From Planctomycetia bacterium (GTDB taxonomy: Bacteria; Planctomycetota; Phycisphaerae; Phycisphaerales; SM1A02), in contig JAACEA010000027.1 of assembly GCA_009936695.1 (NCBI GenBank), positions 1 through 10,880 of the forward strand: a stretch of 10,880 bases of DNA, read 5' to 3'. Shown one piece after another: positions 524 to 10,880 of this stretch. A program made the position numbers and the translations under genes. Every line of letters starts with the position of its first letter. Positions within the stretch are counted from its first letter, which is position 1. The notes under the pieces were generated by a model. The model worked only from the letters and a program-made list of their open reading frames with translations, made no database searches and was not told where the DNA came from.

Positions 524-588
524 TTTCAGACATATGGCCTTCATCCGAAACCCGCCGCCTCGAGGCGATCCACCTTCGCCCCGGGTTC
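524..588. other. Composition break after rplV; probable chimeric or rearrangement joint
   Basis: Between the rplV stop and the ATG at 589 the sequence changes from roughly 50% G+C ribosomal-operon DNA to GC-rich DNA. An ATG at 534-536 lies where rpsC would begin, but the following bases (GCCTTCATCC) do not encode the S3 start (usually MGQK), and that frame stops after 37 codons. The joint therefore probably lies at about 524-545, perhaps just after an original rpsC start codon. In the frame of the next gene the sequence is already open here and Arg-rich (RRLEAIHLRPGF), so the true start of that gene may have been lost at the joint. No promoter is recognised in these 65 bases. Confidence 0.7.
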
Positions 589-3500
589 ATGCCGATCCTC
601 ACCGCGATCGTCGGCTTCGTTCTCGCATTCGGCGTTCGCGCGGCTGAGGCGCAGCAGTGCCCGCCGCCGCCGCCCATCCCGGTCAACTGGGTCCTCTGCG
701 GCGAATGCCGTGGCGACCTCAACGGCGACGGCCTCCTCAACGCACTCGACCTCATGCTCTTCGAGGTCTACCGGGAACAGATCCCGCAGAATCCCTGCGC
801 CGACTTCAACGACAACGGCGTCGTGGACACGTTCGACCTGCAGATCCTGACCTGCGTGATCGACGAATCGGACGGCGCCTGCGTCGCGGTGTGTGGTGAT
901 CCGCTCAATCAGAGCTGCTTCGATGCCGCCAATCCGGGCGACCCGGTCCCCGGCGGCTGTACCGACACCACCTGCTGCGCCACGGTCTGCGAGGTCGACC
1001 CGCAGTGCTGCACCGATGTCTGGGACATCACCTGCGTCGCGATCGCGACCGAGATCTGCCTGCCGGACCGCCCGGATACGCGGGTGGATGTCGGCAATGC
1101 GTTGCGGATCCACGAATACGCCCAGCCCTTCGGCTCGGGAAGCGGGCTGCCCAACGACTGCCTCACCGCCCATCCGACGCCGGGTTGCGCCGATGGTCGC
1201 TGCATCGATCTCGTCTGCGTCGCCGACCCCGCCTGCTGCACGGCCGGCTGGGACGACGCCTGTGTCGCCCTCGCGAAGATCCACTGCCAATCGCCCTGCA
1301 CCAGTCCGAGGATCCAGGAGGAGGTCTGCATCCTCCGACCCGAGTGCTGCGACAGCGGCCTCTGGGACGAAGCCTGCACGCAGTTCGCGACCCTCTGGCT
1401 CACCCAGGGGAACGCCGTCGCCTTCGACGTGCGGCCGCGAGCCTTCCTCCTCAGTCCGATCCCCGAACCGACGCCGAAGAACCCCCTGCCCTTCCAGGCC
1501 GAGCTCGACCGTTTCCGGATCCTGCTCTGCCAGATCGACCCGACCTATTGCGCTCCGGCCGGTGACCTCGCCTTCTTCCAGGACATCCAGATCGCCCTGG
1601 CGACGATCGCGGTCAACTACCCCGACTGTGTCGACCAGTTCCTCGGCGACGAATGGGACGCCGGCTGCGCCCAGGTCGCCGCCCGACTCACCCGACGACC
1701 CGTTCCCGGAAACGTCGGACTCGGCCCTTGCCTTCGCCCCCACGGTGGCCTCGGCTGCGCCGACGCGTACTGCTCCGAACTGGTGTGCAATCTCGACCCG
1801 ACCTGCTGCTCGCTCGAGTGGGACGCCGACTGCGTCCGACTCGCCGGCCGTCAGTGCGAGCTGGTTCCGAGTCGCGATCTCGCGTTCGGCGACGTCGGAA
1901 CCATCGGAGCGGTATCCACCGGCGTGGCCCCGATCGAATGCGGCGCCGACGGCGTCGGCAGCTGCTGCTACCAGAGCAACACCCCGTACTGCAGTGAAGC
2001 GGAATGCTGCCAGCTCGTCTGCGGCTACGACGCCTACTGCTGCGACGTCCGATGGGATGAACTCTGTGCGACCCTCGCGACGGCGGGCTGCGAAACCCTT
2101 TCCGAAGTGTGCAGTTGCGGACCGAAGACGATCGTGTTCGGGCCGTTCGATCGTTCGTGCTTCACCCCGCGCGACCCGTTCGCCCAGTATCCAGCGGGCT
2201 GCGCCGATGCCGGCTGCTGCAACACCGTCTGCGTCGTCGATCCGTTCTGCTGCGAGGTGCTCTGGGATCAGGTCTGCGCCGACGGCGCCGAAACCCTCTG
2301 CGCCCAGGTCTTCCCGGAATGCGGCGAGATCCTCGCCGGAAGCTGCTACGTCCCCCGCGAGAATCCCTACTGCGATGACGAGTCCTGCTGCGAGAGCGTC
2401 TGCGTGGTGGAACCCTTCTGCTGCAACGAGGCCTGGGACGAGGACTGCGTGCAACTCGCCAGCGAAGTCTGCACCGAATGCGGCGACGCCTACTCCGGCT
2501 CCTGCCTCGCCCCGCATCCCGGCCCCGCCTGCTCCGACGAGGACTGCTGCGAGGCGGTCTGCGACGTCGATCCGTTCTGCTGCCTCGCGGCCTGGGACGG
2601 ATCCTGCGTCGCCGCGGCGGCGTTCTTCCCCGCGCTGTGCGACCGGTCGCTCTCCTGCGGCGACGCGTCCGCCCGCAACTGCTTCGTCTCGAGCCCCGAC
2701 CCGGGCTGCAGCGACGACGCCTGCTGCAAGAGCGTGTGCGAGGACTACGACCCCTGGTGCTGCGAGGTCCGATGGGATTCGATGTGCGCAGCCCAGGCCT
2801 TCACCGTCTGCGACATCCCCTTCATCGTGAACGCCCGCGAGCCGTGTGACGAGTTCCACCTCACGCCGGCCTGCAACGACCCCGAATGCTCGGCCGCGGT
2901 CTGCTCGATCCCCGGCCTCGAATTCTGCTGCACGCAGCGATGGGACACCGCGTGCGTCGACGCCGCGGCCACGGTCTGCGTCGGCCTCTACGAGTGCCCC
3001 GGCGTCGGCGACTGCCAGAGGTCGAAGGCCACGCCGATGTGCGACGACGCCGCCTGCTGCAACGTGGTCTGCACCATCGACCCGACCTGCTGCACCGTCC
3101 AGTGGGACAACAGTTGCGCCGTGCTCGGCATCAGCCTCTGCGTCGTTCCCAGTTCCACGCCGAGCGGGGACGACTGGCAGTGCCCCTGCGAGGGCAGCTG
3201 CTTCGAAGCCCGGCCCGAAGACGACCCGAAGCCCGGTTGCGACGACGCCAGCTGCTGTGCTGCGATCTGCAACGTCGACGAACTCTGCTGCACCGTGAAC
3301 TGGGACGCCGAGTGCGTCGTCCTCGCCGAGTTCTACTGCGGAAGCGGACTCCAGTGCGGTTCGTTCAGCACCGGATCATGCCTCCAGTCCTCGGAGACCC
3401 CGTTCTGCGACGACTCCGTCTGCTGCCAGGCGGTGTGTGCGATCGATCCGAGCTGCTGCGTGAACACGTGGGATTCGTTCTGCGTGGCCACCGCGTTCGA

Positions 3501-4398
3501 CCGCTGCCGACGCGGCTGGGGTGTGGAGACGGCGGGATCCTGCTTCTCACGCCACCTGTCACCCGGCTGCAGCGACGGTGAATGCTGCGTCGAGGTCCGC
3601 GACGCCGATCCCCTGTGCTGCACCCTCGTCTGGGACAGTGTCTGCGCGGAAGCGGCGCTCGTCGCGTGCGAGGCGCCGGAGTGCGGCGATTTCCCGGCCG
3701 GCGACTGCTGCCTGCCCAACGGAACGCCCAGTTGCAACGACAAGCGATGCTGCGACGACGTCTGCGTCGACGACCCGTTCTGCTGCGACGTCACCTGGGA
3801 TCTGGGATGCGTCCAGCTCGCCCGCCAGAGCACCCGCTGCGACTGCGGCGCGAACTGGGATTGCGGCGACCCCTGTGCCGGCGACTGCTGCCTGCCCAAC
3901 GGAACGCCGAAGTGCGACGACGAGGACTGCTGCGACGCGGTCTGCCTCGAGGACTCCTTCTGCTGTGACGTCACCTGGGACCTCGTCTGCGCGAACATGG
4001 CCCGAAGCAACCCCGACTGCACCGGCCCCGAGGACGCCTGCCCCGTGCCGGTCTGCGGTGACGCCGATGCCGGCGACTGCTGCTTCCCCAACGGCACCCA
4101 CGCCTGCAGCGACGCGGATTGCTGCGAGGACGTCTGCGACATCGACCCCGCGTGCTGCGACGTCGCCTGGGATTCGATCTGTGCCCAGATCGCCTCGGAG
4201 ACCTGCGAGGATCTCTGCAACTCGGATCTCGCCTGCGGATCCGACGAGACGCTTCCCTGCAACGTTCCCCACGAGGGGCCGTTCTGCAGCGACGAAGCAT
4301 GCTGCGATCAGGTCTGCCTCTTCGAACCGTTCTGCTGCCTCGGTGACTGGGACGAGTTCTGCGTGCTGCTCGCCGACACCTACTGCAACCTGAACTGA
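589..4398 (+). CDS. Secreted giant cysteine-rich repeat protein with N-terminal dockerin-like domain
   Basis: An uncharacterised exported protein of 1269 residues. Residues 2-21 form a signal peptide-like hydrophobic stretch (PILTAIVGFVLAFGVRA then AEAQ). Residues 43-91 hold two dockerin-like calcium loops, DLNGDGLLNALD at 43-54 and DFNDNGVVDTFD at 72-83. Residues 102-1266 are about 19 tandem units of roughly 50-65 residues with the pattern CGD, GSC, PxC, CC, VC, DPxCC, WDxxC, A, C. About 185 Cys are present by hand count, some 15% of the protein. Units 3 and 4 (about residues 240-390) are degenerate. The chain ends three residues after the last unit, with no anchor or sorting signal seen. 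The signal peptide lacks a basic n-region and no ribosome site precedes ATG 589; the open frame reaches upstream into an Arg-rich stretch, so the true start may be missing. I recall similar repeats in uncharacterised planctomycete proteins. A structural, adhesive or surface role is inference only. Confidence 0.93.
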   Translation: MPILTAIVGFVLAFGVRAAEAQQCPPPPPIPVNWVLCGECRGDLNGDGLLNALDLMLFEVYREQIPQNPCADFNDNGVVDTFDLQILTCVIDESDGACVAVCGDPLNQSCFDAANPGDPVPGGCTDTTCCATVCEVDPQCCTDVWDITCVAIATEICLPDRPDTRVDVGNALRIHEYAQPFGSGSGLPNDCLTAHPTPGCADGRCIDLVCVADPACCTAGWDDACVALAKIHCQSPCTSPRIQEEVCILRPECCDSGLWDEACTQFATLWLTQGNAVAFDVRPRAFLLSPIPEPTPKNPLPFQAELDRFRILLCQIDPTYCAPAGDLAFFQDIQIALATIAVNYPDCVDQFLGDEWDAGCAQVAARLTRRPVPGNVGLGPCLRPHGGLGCADAYCSELVCNLDPTCCSLEWDADCVRLAGRQCELVPSRDLAFGDVGTIGAVSTGVAPIECGADGVGSCCYQSNTPYCSEAECCQLVCGYDAYCCDVRWDELCATLATAGCETLSEVCSCGPKTIVFGPFDRSCFTPRDPFAQYPAGCADAGCCNTVCVVDPFCCEVLWDQVCADGAETLCAQVFPECGEILAGSCYVPRENPYCDDESCCESVCVVEPFCCNEAWDEDCVQLASEVCTECGDAYSGSCLAPHPGPACSDEDCCEAVCDVDPFCCLAAWDGSCVAAAAFFPALCDRSLSCGDASARNCFVSSPDPGCSDDACCKSVCEDYDPWCCEVRWDSMCAAQAFTVCDIPFIVNAREPCDEFHLTPACNDPECSAAVCSIPGLEFCCTQRWDTACVDAAATVCVGLYECPGVGDCQRSKATPMCDDAACCNVVCTIDPTCCTVQWDNSCAVLGISLCVVPSSTPSGDDWQCPCEGSCFEARPEDDPKPGCDDASCCAAICNVDELCCTVNWDAECVVLAEFYCGSGLQCGSFSTGSCLQSSETPFCDDSVCCQAVCAIDPSCCVNTWDSFCVATAFDRCRRGWGVETAGSCFSRHLSPGCSDGECCVEVRDADPLCCTLVWDSVCAEAALVACEAPECGDFPAGDCCLPNGTPSCNDKRCCDDVCVDDPFCCDVTWDLGCVQLARQSTRCDCGANWDCGDPCAGDCCLPNGTPKCDDEDCCDAVCLEDSFCCDVTWDLVCANMARSNPDCTGPEDACPVPVCGDADAGDCCFPNGTHACSDADCCEDVCDIDPACCDVAWDSICAQIASETCEDLCNSDLACGSDETLPCNVPHEGPFCSDEACCDQVCLFEPFCCLGDWDEFCVLLADTYCNLN
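715..861 (+). other. Dockerin-like pair of EF-hand calcium loops
   Basis: This part of the Cys-repeat gene encodes residues 43-91. Two loops with the D-x-N-x-D/N-G-x-x-x-x-x-D spacing are separated by about 17 residues, which matches type I dockerins. Classical dockerins bind cohesins and usually sit at the C-terminus; here the pair lies right behind the signal peptide. Planctomycetes have many dockerin-like modules with no known cohesin partner, so calcium binding is well supported and cohesin binding is not. Confidence 0.85.
892..4386 (+). repeat. Coding tandem array of about 19 Cys-rich units
   Basis: The units encode about 50-65 residues each. Numbering the cysteines C1 (CGD), C2 (GSC), C3 (PxC), C4-C5 (CC), C6 (VC), C7-C8 (CC after DP), C9 (WDxxC) and C10 (unit end), most units carry all ten. 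The WD pair before C9 is kept in nearly every unit. Units 2, 5 and 11 lack both C1 and C5. Unit 15 lacks C1 and has Arg instead of C6 (residue 1004, CGC for TGC). Units 6, 16, 17 and 18 have an extra Cys beside C2. Units 16 to 18 are the most alike; units 3 and 4 are the most decayed. Confidence 0.9.
3697..3908 (+). repeat. Recent 180-bp tandem duplication (units 16 and 17)
   Basis: A 32-base stretch at 3697-3728 recurs without a mismatch at 3877-3908, exactly 180 bases (60 codons) later. It encodes AGDCCLPNGTP. Further down the same two units, CGACGTCACCTGGGA also recurs at a 180-base offset (near 3786 and 3966). Unit 18, starting about 192 bases later, shares a weaker copy (GDCCFPNGT). The high nucleotide identity in an otherwise diverged array points to recent expansion of the C-terminal end. 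Confidence 0.85.
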
Positions 4399-4534: not shown

Positions 4535-6136
4535 TCAGTCCGCCGCGCGACGAATGACCAGCACGGTCAGGTCGTCGTCGAAATGATCGCGCTCGCACCA
4601 GTCGACGAGGTCCGCGAGGATCGCGGCGGGATCAGCGCCATGGGCGTCGATGGACGCCTCGATGCGTTCGAGCCCGTAGCGATCGCCATCGCGACTGGAT
4701 GACGGTTCCTCGGCCAGGCCATCGCTGAAGAGGATCAGCGCCTCACCCGGTTGCAACGTGGCCTTCGAGGCCTCGGCGGGGAACGCGTCGATTCCGAGCG
4801 GGGGTCGCCGGGCACCGACCAGCGGCGAGATCGAGCCATCGGCATGCTGCACCAGGGCGAGCCCGTGCCCCGCATCGACGAATTCGACGCCACCGTCCGC
4901 ATCGAGCCGGCCACACCAGAGCGTGATGAAGCACGCTTCCGGAATGGTCCGGACCGCCCAGGCGTCGAGTCGCTCGACGATCTCGGCCGGCGCGAGGCCT
5001 GATTCCGCGAGGGTGTCGGCGCAGGCCTGGGTGCCCGCCATGACCATGCCGGCCCGGGCGCCCTTCCCGCTCACGTCCCCGAGGACCACGTGGAGGCCGT
5101 CGCCGTTTCGCCGCACATCGACGAGGTCACCCGCGACGGTGCGACCCGGGATCGCGACGACCTGCCACGAGAGATCCCCGAGCGAGCCGGACTCGCTCGG
5201 CAGGAGAACCTCCTGGACCGCACGGGCCGCGTTCATCTCCGCCACCATCTGCGCCCGCTCGGATTCCGCGACCCGCCCCTGCTGCATCCGCATGGAGACC
5301 GAACAGAGCTCGGCGATGGCGTCGAACCAGGCGACCAACTCGTCGTCGGCGATGCCCATGCGGCAATCGGCGTAGACCGCGAGCCGGACGCCCTCCTCGG
5401 TCGTTCCGACGTCGATGCACCGACACAATGCTTCACGCACCCCCGCGAGCACGAAACTCTGCGCCTGATCGACGTCGGGATGTTCCTCGAGCCGGACCGT
5501 TCGTCCGGATTCGATCGAGGCCTTGAGCAGCGTCGCGGAGAACGGACGCGGGCTGGTCTCCTCGGACCGTTCCGACGACCGGATCGCCACCGCCCGCGTG
5601 ACCTCGTCCTCGATCCGCAGGATCATCGCACGATCGAGTTCGCAACCGTCGAGCAGGCATTCGAGCAGAGCGCCGAAGATCTCCTCCTCGCCGGTCCGGG
5701 TCGAGGCCCGTCGCACGGCGCTCACCAGGCCGTCGAAGCGATCTCGCAACTGTGGATCGGACACCGCTTCGGCGATCGAGCCGCCGACGTCGCGGTCATC
5801 CAGCACGACGCCGGCCGTCGCCTCCCGACCGAGCACCAGCAGGCTCCATGGATTGATCTCGAGGAGATCCCCTTCGACGATCGCCGTGATCTCACCCGGG
5901 GCGAGTCGCCGCCCGTTCACCCAGGTTCCCCGTGTGGAATGGAGATCCTCGATCGACCAGCCGCCGTCCTCTCCCGGACGCAGGGACGCGTGCCGACGCG
6001 AGATGCCGGGGTCGAGCAGGAGCACGTCCACGTCCCGGCTGCGACCGAAGATCGCCGGGGCGGTGAATTCACGGATCTCCTCTTCAAGACCGGTGGCTTC
6101 CGCGTTTCGAATTCGAAGTCGGAGGGGCGTCGTCAC
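4535..6136 (-). CDS. FHA-GAF-SpoIIE (PP2C-type) serine/threonine phosphatase, RsbU-like
   Basis: A 533-residue cytoplasmic signalling phosphatase. Residues about 5-105 form an FHA phosphothreonine-binding domain with GR at 31-32, SRRH at 46-49 and NG at 74-75. Residues about 130-290 look like a GAF sensor domain. Residues about 320-531 form the SpoIIE/PP2C domain with its acidic metal ligands: AGDLVD at 335-340, GDVSGKG at 353-359, FSDG at 470-473 and DDDLTV at 520-525. The usual GGDYYD motif is changed to AGDLVD, but the two Asp are kept. Such enzymes dephosphorylate anti-anti-sigma or other STAS proteins; no anti-sigma or STAS gene is visible here, so the target is unknown. The start is GTG at 6136, 24 bases after the asnB stop, suggesting cotranscription. 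There are no membrane segments. An FHA domain implies recruitment to a phosphothreonine partner, hence a Hanks-type kinase somewhere else. Confidence 0.93.
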   Translation of the reverse strand: MTTPLRLRIRNAEATGLEEEIREFTAPAIFGRSRDVDVLLLDPGISRRHASLRPGEDGGWSIEDLHSTRGTWVNGRRLAPGEITAIVEGDLLEINPWSLLVLGREATAGVVLDDRDVGGSIAEAVSDPQLRDRFDGLVSAVRRASTRTGEEEIFGALLECLLDGCELDRAMILRIEDEVTRAVAIRSSERSEETSPRPFSATLLKASIESGRTVRLEEHPDVDQAQSFVLAGVREALCRCIDVGTTEEGVRLAVYADCRMGIADDELVAWFDAIAELCSVSMRMQQGRVAESERAQMVAEMNAARAVQEVLLPSESGSLGDLSWQVVAIPGRTVAGDLVDVRRNGDGLHVVLGDVSGKGARAGMVMAGTQACADTLAESGLAPAEIVERLDAWAVRTIPEACFITLWCGRLDADGGVEFVDAGHGLALVQHADGSISPLVGARRPPLGIDAFPAEASKATLQPGEALILFSDGLAEEPSSSRDGDRYGLERIEASIDAHGADPAAILADLVDWCERDHFDDDLTVLVIRRAAD

Positions 6137-6160
6137 GACTGCAGCCTACCGAGGACTCGT

Positions 6161-7981
6161 TCACGATGGGTCGAGCGTGATTCCAGTCTCGACCGACCAG
6201 AGACCGAGATTCGCCAATGGCCAGGCCTGCAGCGGATGGGCCGCCGGATCCTCGCACAGCGCCGACGACACCTCGGGGCGGACCAGGGGACGAATCGCGT
6301 CCGAGACCGCGGGTTCGGCGAGCATCGACGCCGCCCACGGCGCGAACGGCGTGGGGAAACTCGCCTTCGGCCGCGCGACGATCTCGGCCGGCAGTTCCTT
6401 CGCAAAGGCGCGTCGCAGCACCGTCTTGGTTCGGTAGGTCCCATCCGCTTCCGGACCGAAGAGATCCGCGGTGTCGACCCGGGCGACCGCCTCGGCGAAT
6501 CGTCGGTCCGCGAACGGCGGCCTCGCCTCGACCGAGGCCAGCATGCAGGCGGCATTGAGCCGCCCGAGGAGGCCGGGGAGATTCACGGTCTGAAGCCAGT
6601 GCAGATACGACCTCGGCTCGGCGGCACTCCCACCCGAATCGATCGCCGACCCCAGTTCGCCGATCAGGGCCGCGTCGTGACCGATCGCGTCCGCCCATCG
6701 ATCGACCAGCACCGTGGACTTCGCACCGGGGGTGATCCACGAGGCCGATTCGAGCAGCGTGGCCGCGGCGACTTCCGGCCCCGGATCGGCACCCGCGATC
6801 TGCTCGACGAGCCGGAGTATCGGTTCATAGCCACCGAGGATCTCGTCCGCGCCTTCGCCACCGATGGCGACCTTGACGCCGGCGGTCGAGACCGCCTCCG
6901 CGAGCGCGTTGATCGCGATCTCGTTCGGCGTACCGAGTGGCACGCCCATCGATCGCACCATCCGGCGCCACCGCGCGATCGGCGTTTCCGTCGCCTCCGC
7001 GACCGCGACGTCGACCTGATCGGTTCGGAGCCGTCTCGCCATCATCGCGGCGGCCTCGCGGTCGGGATCGGCGGTACCGTCGCCTCCGAGCGCCGTGAAG
7101 GTGCGAAGCGGATCGACCCGGGCCTTCATCAGGGTCGTGAGCACGGCACTGTCGATGCCGCCCGACAGGAGTCCGCAGCGTTCCACGTCGCTCTGGAGAT
7201 GCGCCTCGAGCGTCTCGATCACCGCATTCCGGACCAGGTCATCGGCGGCGTCACCCGTGACGTCACCGGTCGCCTCCGGCGGCGTCCACCAGCATCGATC
7301 GTGGACCCGGGGTCGGGATTCGCGGCAGTCGATCGTGACCAGACCACCCGGACGCACGGTCCGCACCCCGTCCACCATGGTGCGGTCGCCAAGGGTGATC
7401 CGGATCGTCGAGAGGTACCCCGACAGGGTGATCGGATCCACGCGTCGCACGAATCCGGGATGCTCGAGGATCGGCGTCATCTCGCTCGCGAAGACGATCT
7501 CGTCGCCGTGCGCGGGAATCGAGGTCCACATCAGCGGAACCACCCCGAAGGGATCGCGGGCGAGCCGAAGCGTCCGCTCCCGCGGCCGGTACCAGCCGAT
7601 CGCGAACATCCCGCGGAATCGATCGAGCGCGTCCTCGCCCCAGTGATGCACCGCCGCCGCCGCGGTCTCCGCGTCGCAGTTCGTCGAGAACGCGACGCCC
7701 TCCCGTTCGAGGTCCACGCGAAGCGCCCGGTGATTCAGCAGTTCGCCGTTGAAGACGACCACTGTGACGTGGTCGCCGGTGCCCCGTACGAACGGCTCCC
7801 GCCCGTGCTGCGGATCCATGATGGCGAGCCGCCGATGTCCGATCCACGCGACGTCGTCCGACCAGTCCCCGCTCCCATCGGGCCCGCGGTGGCGGAGCCG
7901 ATCGCGCATCCGTGCCCGCGTCGCCTCGTCGGCCGAGGGGGCCCGATCCGCACACGCGATGATTCCGGTGATGCCGCACAT
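6161..7981 (-). CDS. asnB: Asparagine synthetase, glutamine-hydrolysing (class II amidotransferase)
   Basis: A 606-residue AsnB-type enzyme that makes Asn from Asp, ATP and glutamine-derived ammonia in the cytoplasm. The start is set by the catalytic N-terminal Cys: ATG at 7981 gives MCGITGII, so Cys2 is the nucleophile; a longer reading from 8005 would bury it. A GGAG lies about nine bases upstream. The glutaminase half shows RHRGPDGSG and FNGELLNH. The synthetase half has the PP-loop SGGIDS at 273-278, GEGADEILGGY at 375-385, the VEARPPFADRRF segment (family LEVRVPFLD) and a C-terminal KTVLRRAF...LPAEIVARPKASFPTPF region. All key motifs are present and the length is normal. It lies between a MazG-like gene (112 bases upstream) and the FHA phosphatase. 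Some relatives act on other acceptors, for example in natural-product or cell-wall amidation, so the exact substrate is not proven. Confidence 0.93.
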   Translation of the reverse strand: MCGITGIIACADRAPSADEATRARMRDRLRHRGPDGSGDWSDDVAWIGHRRLAIMDPQHGREPFVRGTGDHVTVVVFNGELLNHRALRVDLEREGVAFSTNCDAETAAAAVHHWGEDALDRFRGMFAIGWYRPRERTLRLARDPFGVVPLMWTSIPAHGDEIVFASEMTPILEHPGFVRRVDPITLSGYLSTIRITLGDRTMVDGVRTVRPGGLVTIDCRESRPRVHDRCWWTPPEATGDVTGDAADDLVRNAVIETLEAHLQSDVERCGLLSGGIDSAVLTTLMKARVDPLRTFTALGGDGTADPDREAAAMMARRLRTDQVDVAVAEATETPIARWRRMVRSMGVPLGTPNEIAINALAEAVSTAGVKVAIGGEGADEILGGYEPILRLVEQIAGADPGPEVAAATLLESASWITPGAKSTVLVDRWADAIGHDAALIGELGSAIDSGGSAAEPRSYLHWLQTVNLPGLLGRLNAACMLASVEARPPFADRRFAEAVARVDTADLFGPEADGTYRTKTVLRRAFAKELPAEIVARPKASFPTPFAPWAASMLAEPAVSDAIRPLVRPEVSSALCEDPAAHPLQAWPLANLGLWSVETGITLDPS

Positions 7982-8093
7982 GTCGCCGACTCCGACGGGG
8001 ACCATGACTGAAGAACTGAATCACGCGGTCGGAACCGCTACCGAGGCTTGTGATCTTCGGCCCGCGCGTCCTCCCCGCTGGAGAACCGGGCGA
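7982..8093. other. Intergenic gap between the MazG-like gene and asnB
   Basis: These 112 bases carry a small hairpin (GCGGT at 8025-8029 with ACCGC at 8034-8038, 4-base loop) and the asnB ribosome site. I see no convincing promoter. The gap is long enough for one, so cotranscription of the MazG-like gene and asnB is possible but not shown. Confidence 0.4.
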
Positions 8094-9849: not shown

Positions 9850-9923
9850 GTCCATGTAGCTCAATTGGATAGAGCACTGCCCTCCGAAGGCAGGGGTTGG
9901 AGGTTCGAGTCCTCCCATGGACG
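9850..9923 (+). tRNA. tRNA-Arg, anticodon CCG
   Basis: A complete 74-base cloverleaf. The acceptor stem is a perfect 7 bp (GTCCATG at 9850-9856 with CATGGAC at 9916-9922) with discriminator G9923. The D stem is GCTC/GAGC (9859-9862, 9872-9875). The anticodon stem is CTGCC/GGCAG (9877-9881, 9889-9893) with loop CTCCGAA, so the anticodon is CCG at 9884-9886, reading the Arg codon CGG. The T arm is GGAGG, TTCGAGT, CCTCC (9899-9915). The CCA end is not encoded. An integrase gene starts 133 bases downstream in the same direction, so this tRNA may be an integration site. Confidence 0.97.
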
Positions 9924-10002
9924 TTCGCTCGATGATCTTGCGTCCCCGTTAGCCATAGGGTTTACGGGTCACCCGCTCCGGCGGCGTCGAGGCTTCCTTA
10001 GA

Positions 10003-10035
10003 TCTGAACAGGTGCGCGCGCGCACCCGTTCCAGA
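10003..10035. repeat. Long imperfect palindrome between tRNA-Arg and the integrase start
   Basis: The core GGTGCGCGCGCGCACC (10011-10026) is a perfect 16-base palindrome. It extends outward through one A/C mismatch (10010/10027), AAC/GTT, and then TCTG/CAGA with C10031 bulged, giving arms that reach 10003 and 10035. A smaller odd palindrome, CGGGT-C-ACCCG, lies at 9965-9975, and AAAGGCCTTT at 10041-10050. The long one could be a terminator for the tRNA, an operator for the integrase or a recombinase site; no T-tract follows, so terminator is not favoured. Confidence 0.55.
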
Positions 10036-10055
10036 CTCAGAAAGGCCTTTCGCCG

Positions 10056-10880
10056 ATGACGCAAAAGCCACCCCCCCGTCTCCTCCGCCGAAAATCCGGC
10101 GGGTTCTTTGTGAAGTGTGGCGCCCGACGCCGCTCCTTCGGAACCTGTCCCGCGGAGGCTCATGCCTCATACGAAAGATTCCGCATCGAGTGGGATCAGG
10201 CCGGCGGACGCTGGCCATTGGATCGGGCCGTCGCCCCCAGTGTTTCGATTCTGGTCGCAGAAGTCTGGCCATGGATTGAAGCCCGCACCGCGGCCCCGAG
10301 CCTCTCAGGCTGGCGTTCGGCTGCGCGGACCCTGATCGAGATGAATGGTCCGACGGATGCTGAGTGTTTCGGTCTTCCCGAGCTGGAAGCGATCCGACAA
10401 CGCCTCATCGACATCGGCCTCGGCTCCTCCACGGTTACCCAGCGAGTGCGGCAGATCAAGACGCTCTTTCGACGCGGCGCCGCCGTCGGTTACTACACCA
10501 ACGCCAGCCGGCTGATCGTCCAGCCCGCCACGCAGCTGAACACGCCCCTCACCTCGGTCGCGATCCCCGCCCTGAGCCGGCTCCAATCCGATCCGGAGCG
10601 GTTCCGCGCGTTCTACCGCCGGGGTCTGGAAGCCGTGATCTTCTTGCTCTGCCCCTTCATGCTCGTGGCGATGGCGGGCGCCGACCATCTGATCCCCTTG
10701 TTCCTCGGGCCGCAGTGGAAGGCGTCGATTCCCCTCTTCCTCGCCCTCACGCCCGCGGGGCTCGTGGCGTGCACCGGGGTCGCCACGAGCTGGGTCTACA
10801 TCCCCCTCGGTCGCACCGACCGCCAGTTCCGCTGGCGGATCCTGTCATCGATCGTGACGATCGTCGCGGTCCTGATCGGA
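10056..10880 (+). CDS. In-frame chimera: tyrosine recombinase N-terminus joined to Wzx/MOP flippase (runs off window)
   Basis: One frame of 275 codons with no stop, open at the window edge. Residues 1-144 match the N-terminal part of planctomycete-type phage integrases: a basic start (RLLRRKSGGFFVKCGARRR), a GTCPAEAHASYERFRIEW segment, and the SAM-like core-binding helices ending LGSSTVTQRVRQIKTLFRR. The catalytic domain (R-HxxR-Y) is absent. From G145-Y146 on the sequence is a MOP-superfamily polysaccharide exporter: GYYTNASRL, NTPLTSVAIPALSRL, DPERF, then LFLGPQWKASIPLF and hydrophobic segments. By hand count 44 of 144 codons end in A/T before the switch and 10 of 131 after it. AAAGG lies about 10 bases before ATG 10056. 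A working fusion is unlikely, since both halves are incomplete domains; a joint between two genomes or a deletion is more likely. Confidence 0.8.
   Translation, partial: MTQKPPPRLLRRKSGGFFVKCGARRRSFGTCPAEAHASYERFRIEWDQAGGRWPLDRAVAPSVSILVAEVWPWIEARTAAPSLSGWRSAARTLIEMNGPTDAECFGLPELEAIRQRLIDIGLGSSTVTQRVRQIKTLFRRGAAVGYYTNASRLIVQPATQLNTPLTSVAIPALSRLQSDPERFRAFYRRGLEAVIFLLCPFMLVAMAGADHLIPLFLGPQWKASIPLFLALTPAGLVACTGVATSWVYIPLGRTDRQFRWRILSSIVTIVAVLIG
10480..10493. other. Switch point from integrase to flippase sequence
   Basis: Homology changes between codons FRRG (about 10467-10478) and GYYTN (from 10488). Integrases of this type usually continue with a short hydrophobic stretch and PxxV after the helix, whereas GYY is the start of a conserved flippase segment; the GAAVG between them could belong to either side. 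Codon bias rises sharply here. The exact base cannot be fixed without both parent sequences. Confidence 0.65.

Follow-up and report, generated by a model that had tools for sequence, protein, structure and literature searches.

We analysed a window of 10,880 nucleotides (the whole stretch of DNA considered here: positions 1 to 10,880 of contig JAACEA010000027.1, assembly GCA_009936695.1, from a Planctomycetia bacterium), which carries a giant gene for a cysteine-rich repeat protein. Its open reading frame (ORF; 589-4398, plus strand) encodes 1269 amino acids (aa) and a stop codon, and the frame stays open upstream. An earlier note on this DNA had described about 185 cysteines, about 19 repeat units and a nearly invariant WDxxC motif. 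We counted 187 cysteines, and a profile built from the window's own units found 19 units, including two degenerate ones, at aa 237-268 and, as a remnant, at aa 354-366; a stricter profile cut-off dropped the remnant and left 18. The WDxxC motif occurs 19 times in the protein, whereas 1000 shuffles of its residues produced 0.42 on average and never more than 3. The unit array is real and lies well outside chance expectation. The mature chain (without aa 1-21) contains 205 Asp and Glu residues against 47 Lys and Arg. The secreted-type N-terminus and the chain of small knots proposed in the note agree with a signal peptide, read by eye, and with the array. The features of the gene are as follows; units were called by the unit profile, and odd cysteine counts include the linker.

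589..4398, plus strand: giant cysteine-rich ORF, true start probably absent from the contig
589..651, plus strand: signal peptide core, aa 1-21, ending in RAAEA before QQC, read by eye
712..849, plus strand: dockerin type I-like EF-hand pair, aa 42-87 (PF00404, 23.2 bits, cut-off 22.9)
892..1059, plus strand: unit 1
1153..1287, plus strand: unit 2, 8-Cys form without the Ca/C4 pair
1297..1392, plus strand: unit 3, degenerate
1648..1686, plus strand: unit 4, remnant with the WDxxC helix only, 6.8 bits
1720..1857, plus strand: unit 5, 8-Cys form
1939..2091, plus strand: unit 6, odd Cys count
2152..2301, plus strand: unit 7, odd Cys count
2320..2472, plus strand: unit 8, structure modelled
2479..2640, plus strand: unit 9, structure modelled
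2656..2811, plus strand: unit 10, structure modelled
2836..2979, plus strand: unit 11, 8-Cys form
2995..3141, plus strand: unit 12
3181..3339, plus strand: unit 13, odd Cys count
3355..3507, plus strand: unit 14
3529..3669, plus strand: unit 15, Ca and C5 lost
3688..3828, plus strand: unit 16, odd Cys count
3862..4008, plus strand: unit 17, odd Cys count
4054..4206, plus strand: unit 18
4234..4386, plus strand: unit 19, odd Cys count, 3 aa before the protein end

The cysteine pattern of the unit was analysed in the window protein and the 120 listed of its 181 homologues (121 proteins), where 2036 of 2105 units kept all core columns. The canonical unit has ten cysteines in the order Ca, C1, C2, C3C4, C5, C6C7, C8 and C9, with WD preceding C8. 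The three CC pairs per unit given in the earlier note hold for some units only, since the canonical order has two and an extra cysteine adjoins the second in 485 of 2036 units. In counts that ignore kinship, Ca and C4 were lost together in 108 units against 9.0 expected, C1 and C2 in 43 against 1.6, and C5 and C7 in 5 against 0.0 expected as printed; these joint losses span 23, 7 and 4 combinations of unit number and slot, respectively. The data thus support the disulfides Ca-C4, C1-C2 and C5-C7. No further tested pair reached p 0.05, the nearest being C3-C9 (4 against 1.6, p 0.07); pairs with fewer than four losses on a side were excluded, hence all those with C6 or C8, neither of which was lost in any of the 2036 units.

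A coevolution run on 2029 unique units (effective number 1091) placed C1-C2 (z 4.9) and C5-C7 (z 2.9) within its top 30 pairs. It also returned the position pairs 25-49, 29-49, 29-45, 21-49 and 32-45, indicating that helix 1 runs antiparallel to helix 3. This register would bring C3 near C9 and C6 near C8, and from geometry and elimination we infer that C3-C9 and C6-C8 are the other two disulfides. An AlphaFold2 (AF2) model of window units 8-10, a prediction that the earlier note had proposed, reached a mean predicted local distance difference test score (pLDDT) of 92.4 with each unit a three-helix knot. The predicted fold has helix 1 antiparallel to helix 3 and a short helix between them. The modelled unit found no fold match among Protein Data Bank (PDB) structures, and the unit sequences found no match among PDB sequences. 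An earlier AF2 model from 26 rows (pLDDT 57.7; no match by VIA-align) was too weak and was not relied on.

The earlier note had left a choice between disulfide and metal-site geometry. Disulfides are favoured because the cysteines are lost in specific pairs. The common Asp residues (in 73%, 77% and 97% of units) lie 1-2 residues ahead of the predicted helices, a helix-cap-like placement, and the metal-site reading was dropped on both grounds. Units with the Ca/C4 pair absent or replaced also occur in a Deltaproteobacteria record (L039). Unit 15 of the window has lost Ca and C5, both of which are kept in the orthologue P0001 and at loci L036 and L037; the pattern occurs once among 2035 unique units and is either a real change or a sequence error.

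The array as a whole is near-constant. The profile detected between 12 and 25 units in every one of the 120 listed homologues and exactly 17 in 86 of the 121 proteins, with a median span of 958 aa (range 946-1106), while the window's clade has 18-20. Seventeen units cover 951-965 aa in 14 of 22 compared loci, with long branches between them. All 182 cysteines of aa 96-1269 are kept in 7 of the 25 first-listed homologues, five of the seven at 54-56% identity, and 30 of 30 cysteines of a three-unit stretch are kept in 117 of the 120 listed homologues. The order of the units is conserved as well: in five homologues of the same unit number among the first 25, slot k of the window best matched slot k in 75 of 90 tests, and outside the cysteines window units were 60% identical to the same slot, against the 29% that window units average. 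A repeat array of near-fixed number and span over such deep divergence is unusual, and near-constant number and order disfavour freely expanding adhesin repeats.

Odd cysteine counts also fall at fixed slots. In 17-unit proteins they occur at unit 4 (82/86), unit 5 (83/85) and unit 11 (86/86), and frequently at unit 14 (57/84), unit 15 (66/86) and unit 17 (65/86). A bond between units 4 and 5 is conceivable, as they lie side by side, while unit 11, which has no odd-Cys neighbour, hints at a long-range or inter-chain bond.

The unit belongs to a named family. The earlier note knew of no named domain, a statement that has to be withdrawn, since PF26780 is annotated on all 120 listed homologues. 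By our count it is also annotated on 83 of the 104 homologues of the L078 protein, which has four units and comes from a metagenome-assembled genome (MAG) titled Deltaproteobacteria. Because P0029 and P0023 consist of units almost end to end, PF26780 probably marks the unit or a run of units. The Pfam release searched predates PF26780, and the Pfam and NCBIfam searches were empty for the unit because the model was absent from that release; the only Pfam hint was Keratin_B2_2 (E 0.33, one of 16 units), and no NCBIfam model matched the window protein, even with an E-value limit of 10. Known small-knot families were rejected after Pfam, NCBIfam and PDB sequence searches, and the acidic double-disulfide repeat model NF033662, which matches L089, did not match the window protein. 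A likeness of the unit to hydrophobin, CFEM, phospholipase A2 and plant 8-Cys patterns was considered and gained no search support. No search run returned a strong match to a characterised domain of known function, and a literature search found no paper naming PF26780 and no title on the window protein.

We carried out the unit-profile search of planctomycete genomes that the earlier note had suggested. Within the window's family the profile matched 151 of 181 genomes, in 42 of 45 genera and 86 of 104 good genomes; judging by the names of some homologues, this family appears to be Phycisphaerales. Across the phylum only 2 of 294 genomes matched, the window's own and one of the same family, even with a wider profile, the absences being provisional as the initial screen of the genome search was loose. 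In the phylum of the Deltaproteobacteria MAG, 42 of 140 genomes matched. Homologues of the L078 protein (8000 candidates scored) carry the names Nannocystis, Paraliomyxa and Myxococcales, and the unit is also found in myxobacteria. As a side observation, one 6.5 Mb MAG (G481, source of locus L037) exceeds the listed family genomes, and its unit matches lie nearly all on one short contig, which may be a contaminant of the bin. In another record (L082, 1-2283), three units lie among thrombospondin type 3 repeats, and an MtsC cohesion model scored 370 bits against a cut-off of 350; this score may reflect only the repeats.

The genomic address of the giant gene was compared in 24 loci, which were best matches and not a random sample; 22 of them held an ORF of at least 16 units (L101, with 4 units, and the partial L038 were excluded). 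With one exception (L100), the 22 loci have uppS upstream of the giant and on the same strand; in 14 of these 21 the two genes are at most 0.2 kb apart or their open frames overlap, and in 7 the distance is 1 to 5.3 kb. On the other side of uppS lies purA in 18 of 21 loci. This near-constant address suggests that the giant is a core gene passed on by vertical descent. In six loci (L040, L097, L098, L099, L106 and L107) a gene for a reprolysin-like FG-GAP protein, 34-47% identical to the L040 copy, lies between uppS and the giant, and L109 has a weaker match (27%):

L040, 8443-11448: reprolysin-like metalloprotease with FG-GAP repeats, before the 17-unit giant

In the window itself the upstream side is disturbed. 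Bases 1-523 (rplV and the probable end of rpsS) have 50% GC and bases 541-4398 have 68%, and a second rplV-like gene of the window genome lies on contig C220 at 66% GC, with 36% identity to the window copy. The window genome's uppS is on contig C405, where it is followed by what appears to be the missing 5' end of the giant gene; the end of C405 aligns to the L038 region that leads into the start of the giant gene. The C405 tail and the window have no alignable stretch in common, and the link between the two contigs is deduced. The N-terminus of the orthologue P0001 is 22 aa longer than that of the window protein. Given this longer orthologue and the content of C405, Met 589 is probably internal, and the gene start was probably cut off by a chimeric join, a likely misassembly or contamination:

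524..541, no strand: probable false contig join between the low-GC rpsS/rplV piece and the giant gene, from GC and contig comparisons

Downstream, the minus strand at 4535-8005 holds, by names given by eye, an FHA and SpoIIE/PP2C-like phosphatase gene and an asparagine synthase gene, convergent with the giant; at L036, L037, L046, L047, L096 and L102, relatives of these FHA-PP2C and AsnB genes likewise lie downstream of the giant. At 9850-10880 a tRNA-Arg(CCG) is followed by an integrase-like start that, read by eye, seems to run into flippase-like sequence, possibly a second contig join.

Behind the signal peptide lies the dockerin-like module, a position that the earlier note called unusual. 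The module itself held up, its PF00404 match being barely over the cut-off, and two canonical calcium loops, DLNGDGLLNALD and DFNDNGVVDTFD, were recognised by eye. Its position is not peculiar to this protein, as a DxNxDG loop lies ahead of the units in 21 of the first 25 listed homologues. Among the first 44 homologues, nine with 17 units in a short chain (about 1000 aa) have no such loop. No cohesin was found in the eight genomes of the window's genus, its own (88% complete) included, and a cellulosome reading was rejected on this result; cohesin matched in 2 of 25 genomes of the family and in 3 of the 41 relatives searched, and its control in 1 of 14 named genomes.

Other planctomycetes have cysteine-rich wall proteins of a different kind, the YTV proteins. 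According to published work, they were found in planctomycete cell wall preparations (PMC8567305), were suggested to affect wall rigidity and are among the essential proteins of Planctopirus, restricted to Planctomycetia (PMC10632474); they are reported from only part of the phylum (PMC8567305, PMC10632474). The YTV profile (PF07639) matched neither the window protein, with E allowed up to 10, nor any of 41 relatives. As a working control it matched 13 of 199 genomes across the phylum, all outside the window's class.

A structural role at the surface is plausible, and we favour it because of the cysteine conservation, the near-fixed number and order of units, the near-constant address and the lack of YTV in relatives. 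The reading to which we give about half of our confidence is a disulfide-welded secreted surface scaffold that works like the YTV wall proteins and is unrelated to them. The protein would be exported by the Sec pathway, as its signal peptide suggests, and each unit of about 50 residues would fold into a three-helix knot with up to five internal disulfides. In most members 17 of these knots, and in the window's clade 18-20, would form a chain of near-constant length and order, in which the odd-Cys units at fixed slots may weld neighbouring units or neighbouring chains. The chain might then form or cross-link a protein layer at the cell surface, taking the role of the cysteine-rich YTV proteins of other planctomycetes, and the calcium-loop pair may aid its folding or attachment. 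A bolder version, which we regard as unlikely, is that the family evolved its own disulfide-welded, non-YTV envelope: a uppS-adjacent core gene would supply a rod of usually 17 knots with an unsolved fold, odd cysteines would join the rods into a covalent sheath, and the span of the array would serve as a ruler for layer thickness or lattice.

Several observations weigh against this scaffold reading. The unit was not matched in 30 of the 181 family genomes, and a genome of another phylum (G618) has two proteins with eight listed unit matches each. The window genome and G251 have further proteins with 1-9 copies of the unit; the other bearers in these two genomes include two subtilases, one C-type lectin, two galactose-binding-like proteins and several proteins that end in dockerin-like pairs, a number of which score below the Pfam cut-off. 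The unit is a general extracellular module and not wall-specific, and the giant is its most constrained use observed. No anchor (by eye) or S-layer signal was seen in the window protein, and its surface location is putative. The disulfide map has exceptions: C4 was lost with a cysteine kept upstream in 60 units, C1 with C2 kept in 34, and C7 with C5 kept in 6. The coevolution run also gave Ca-C9 (z 2.9) and C6-C9 (z 2.3), absent from the proposed map, and its top two pairs (6-12 and 2-16) are not inter-helix. A different slot matched better in 15 of the 90 slot tests. Total cysteines of 17-unit proteins are odd in 46 and even in 40, and because of this mixed parity the odd-Cys slots are only a hint of cross-links. 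Finally, since purA and uppS have housekeeping roles, the conserved neighbourhood may be uninformative on function.

Other proteins of the window genome combine the unit with C-type lectin or galactose-binding-like domains, which would suit an adhesive or ligand-binding surface fibre. In such a fibre variable knot faces would bind polysaccharide or particles, with avidity arising from the number of knots. The low average identity of the window units outside the cysteines (29%) and the lipoprotein-like N-termini, read by eye, of the unit proteins in another phylum point the same way. Repeat adhesins usually vary in repeat number, however, whereas number, order and span are near-constant here, and no binding residue was identified; we consider this fibre doubtful. 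Also improbable in our view is that the giant, held through its dockerin-like module, serves an extracellular peptidase complex as scaffold or partner. Such a complex would resemble the planctosome, which was proposed for freshwater Phycisphaerae with cohesin/dockerin, lamin-tail and M12B reprolysin-like parts (PMC6461901), and it would fit both the reprolysin-like FG-GAP genes before the giant in six loci, with the weaker case at L109, and the subtilases that bear the unit. Against it stand the missing cohesin in the genus, the nine loop-free homologues, and the giants of L046, L047, L096 and L102, which have no protease match beside them.

Small disulfide-rich knots N-terminal to the subtilase domains of two proteins (L042 and L056) recall other small-knot strings that inhibit secreted proteases. 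Inhibition is nevertheless very improbable for these units, as no inhibitor family matched in Pfam or PDB sequences, no fold matched and no reactive loop was identified. Hardly credible is a metal-binding or cysteine-storage protein: the 187 cysteines and the acidic residues of the mature chain would suit it, but the pair-specific cysteine losses, the Asp residues placed as helix caps and the secreted-type N-terminus argue against it.

What is new here is the address downstream of uppS, the near-fixed array, the disulfide map, the predicted fold and the distribution. The composition of the planctomycete envelope has long been argued, and the giant offers a concrete candidate for another family of the phylum; with its near-constant gene address, it makes the envelope question directly testable. 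For PF26780, a family without a solved-structure relative by sequence or fold, the analysis also supplies a predicted fold together with a map of the disulfides.

Compared with known systems, the window protein resembles dockerin type I proteins and the planctosome in the two calcium-loop sequences near its secreted-type N-terminus, and differs in that its module lies directly behind the signal peptide and that no cohesin was found in any of the 8 genus genomes. It shares cysteine-rich tandem repeats with the TraA-type surface proteins of myxobacteria, whereas NCBIfam, in which the presence of a TraA model was unchecked, gave no match at E up to 10. The YTV proteins are likewise planctomycete, cysteine-rich and built of short repeats, but PF07639 does not match the window protein and was not found in its relatives. 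With the members of PF26780 the window protein has a homologous unit in common; those related to the L078 protein are shorter and have fewer units than its 19.

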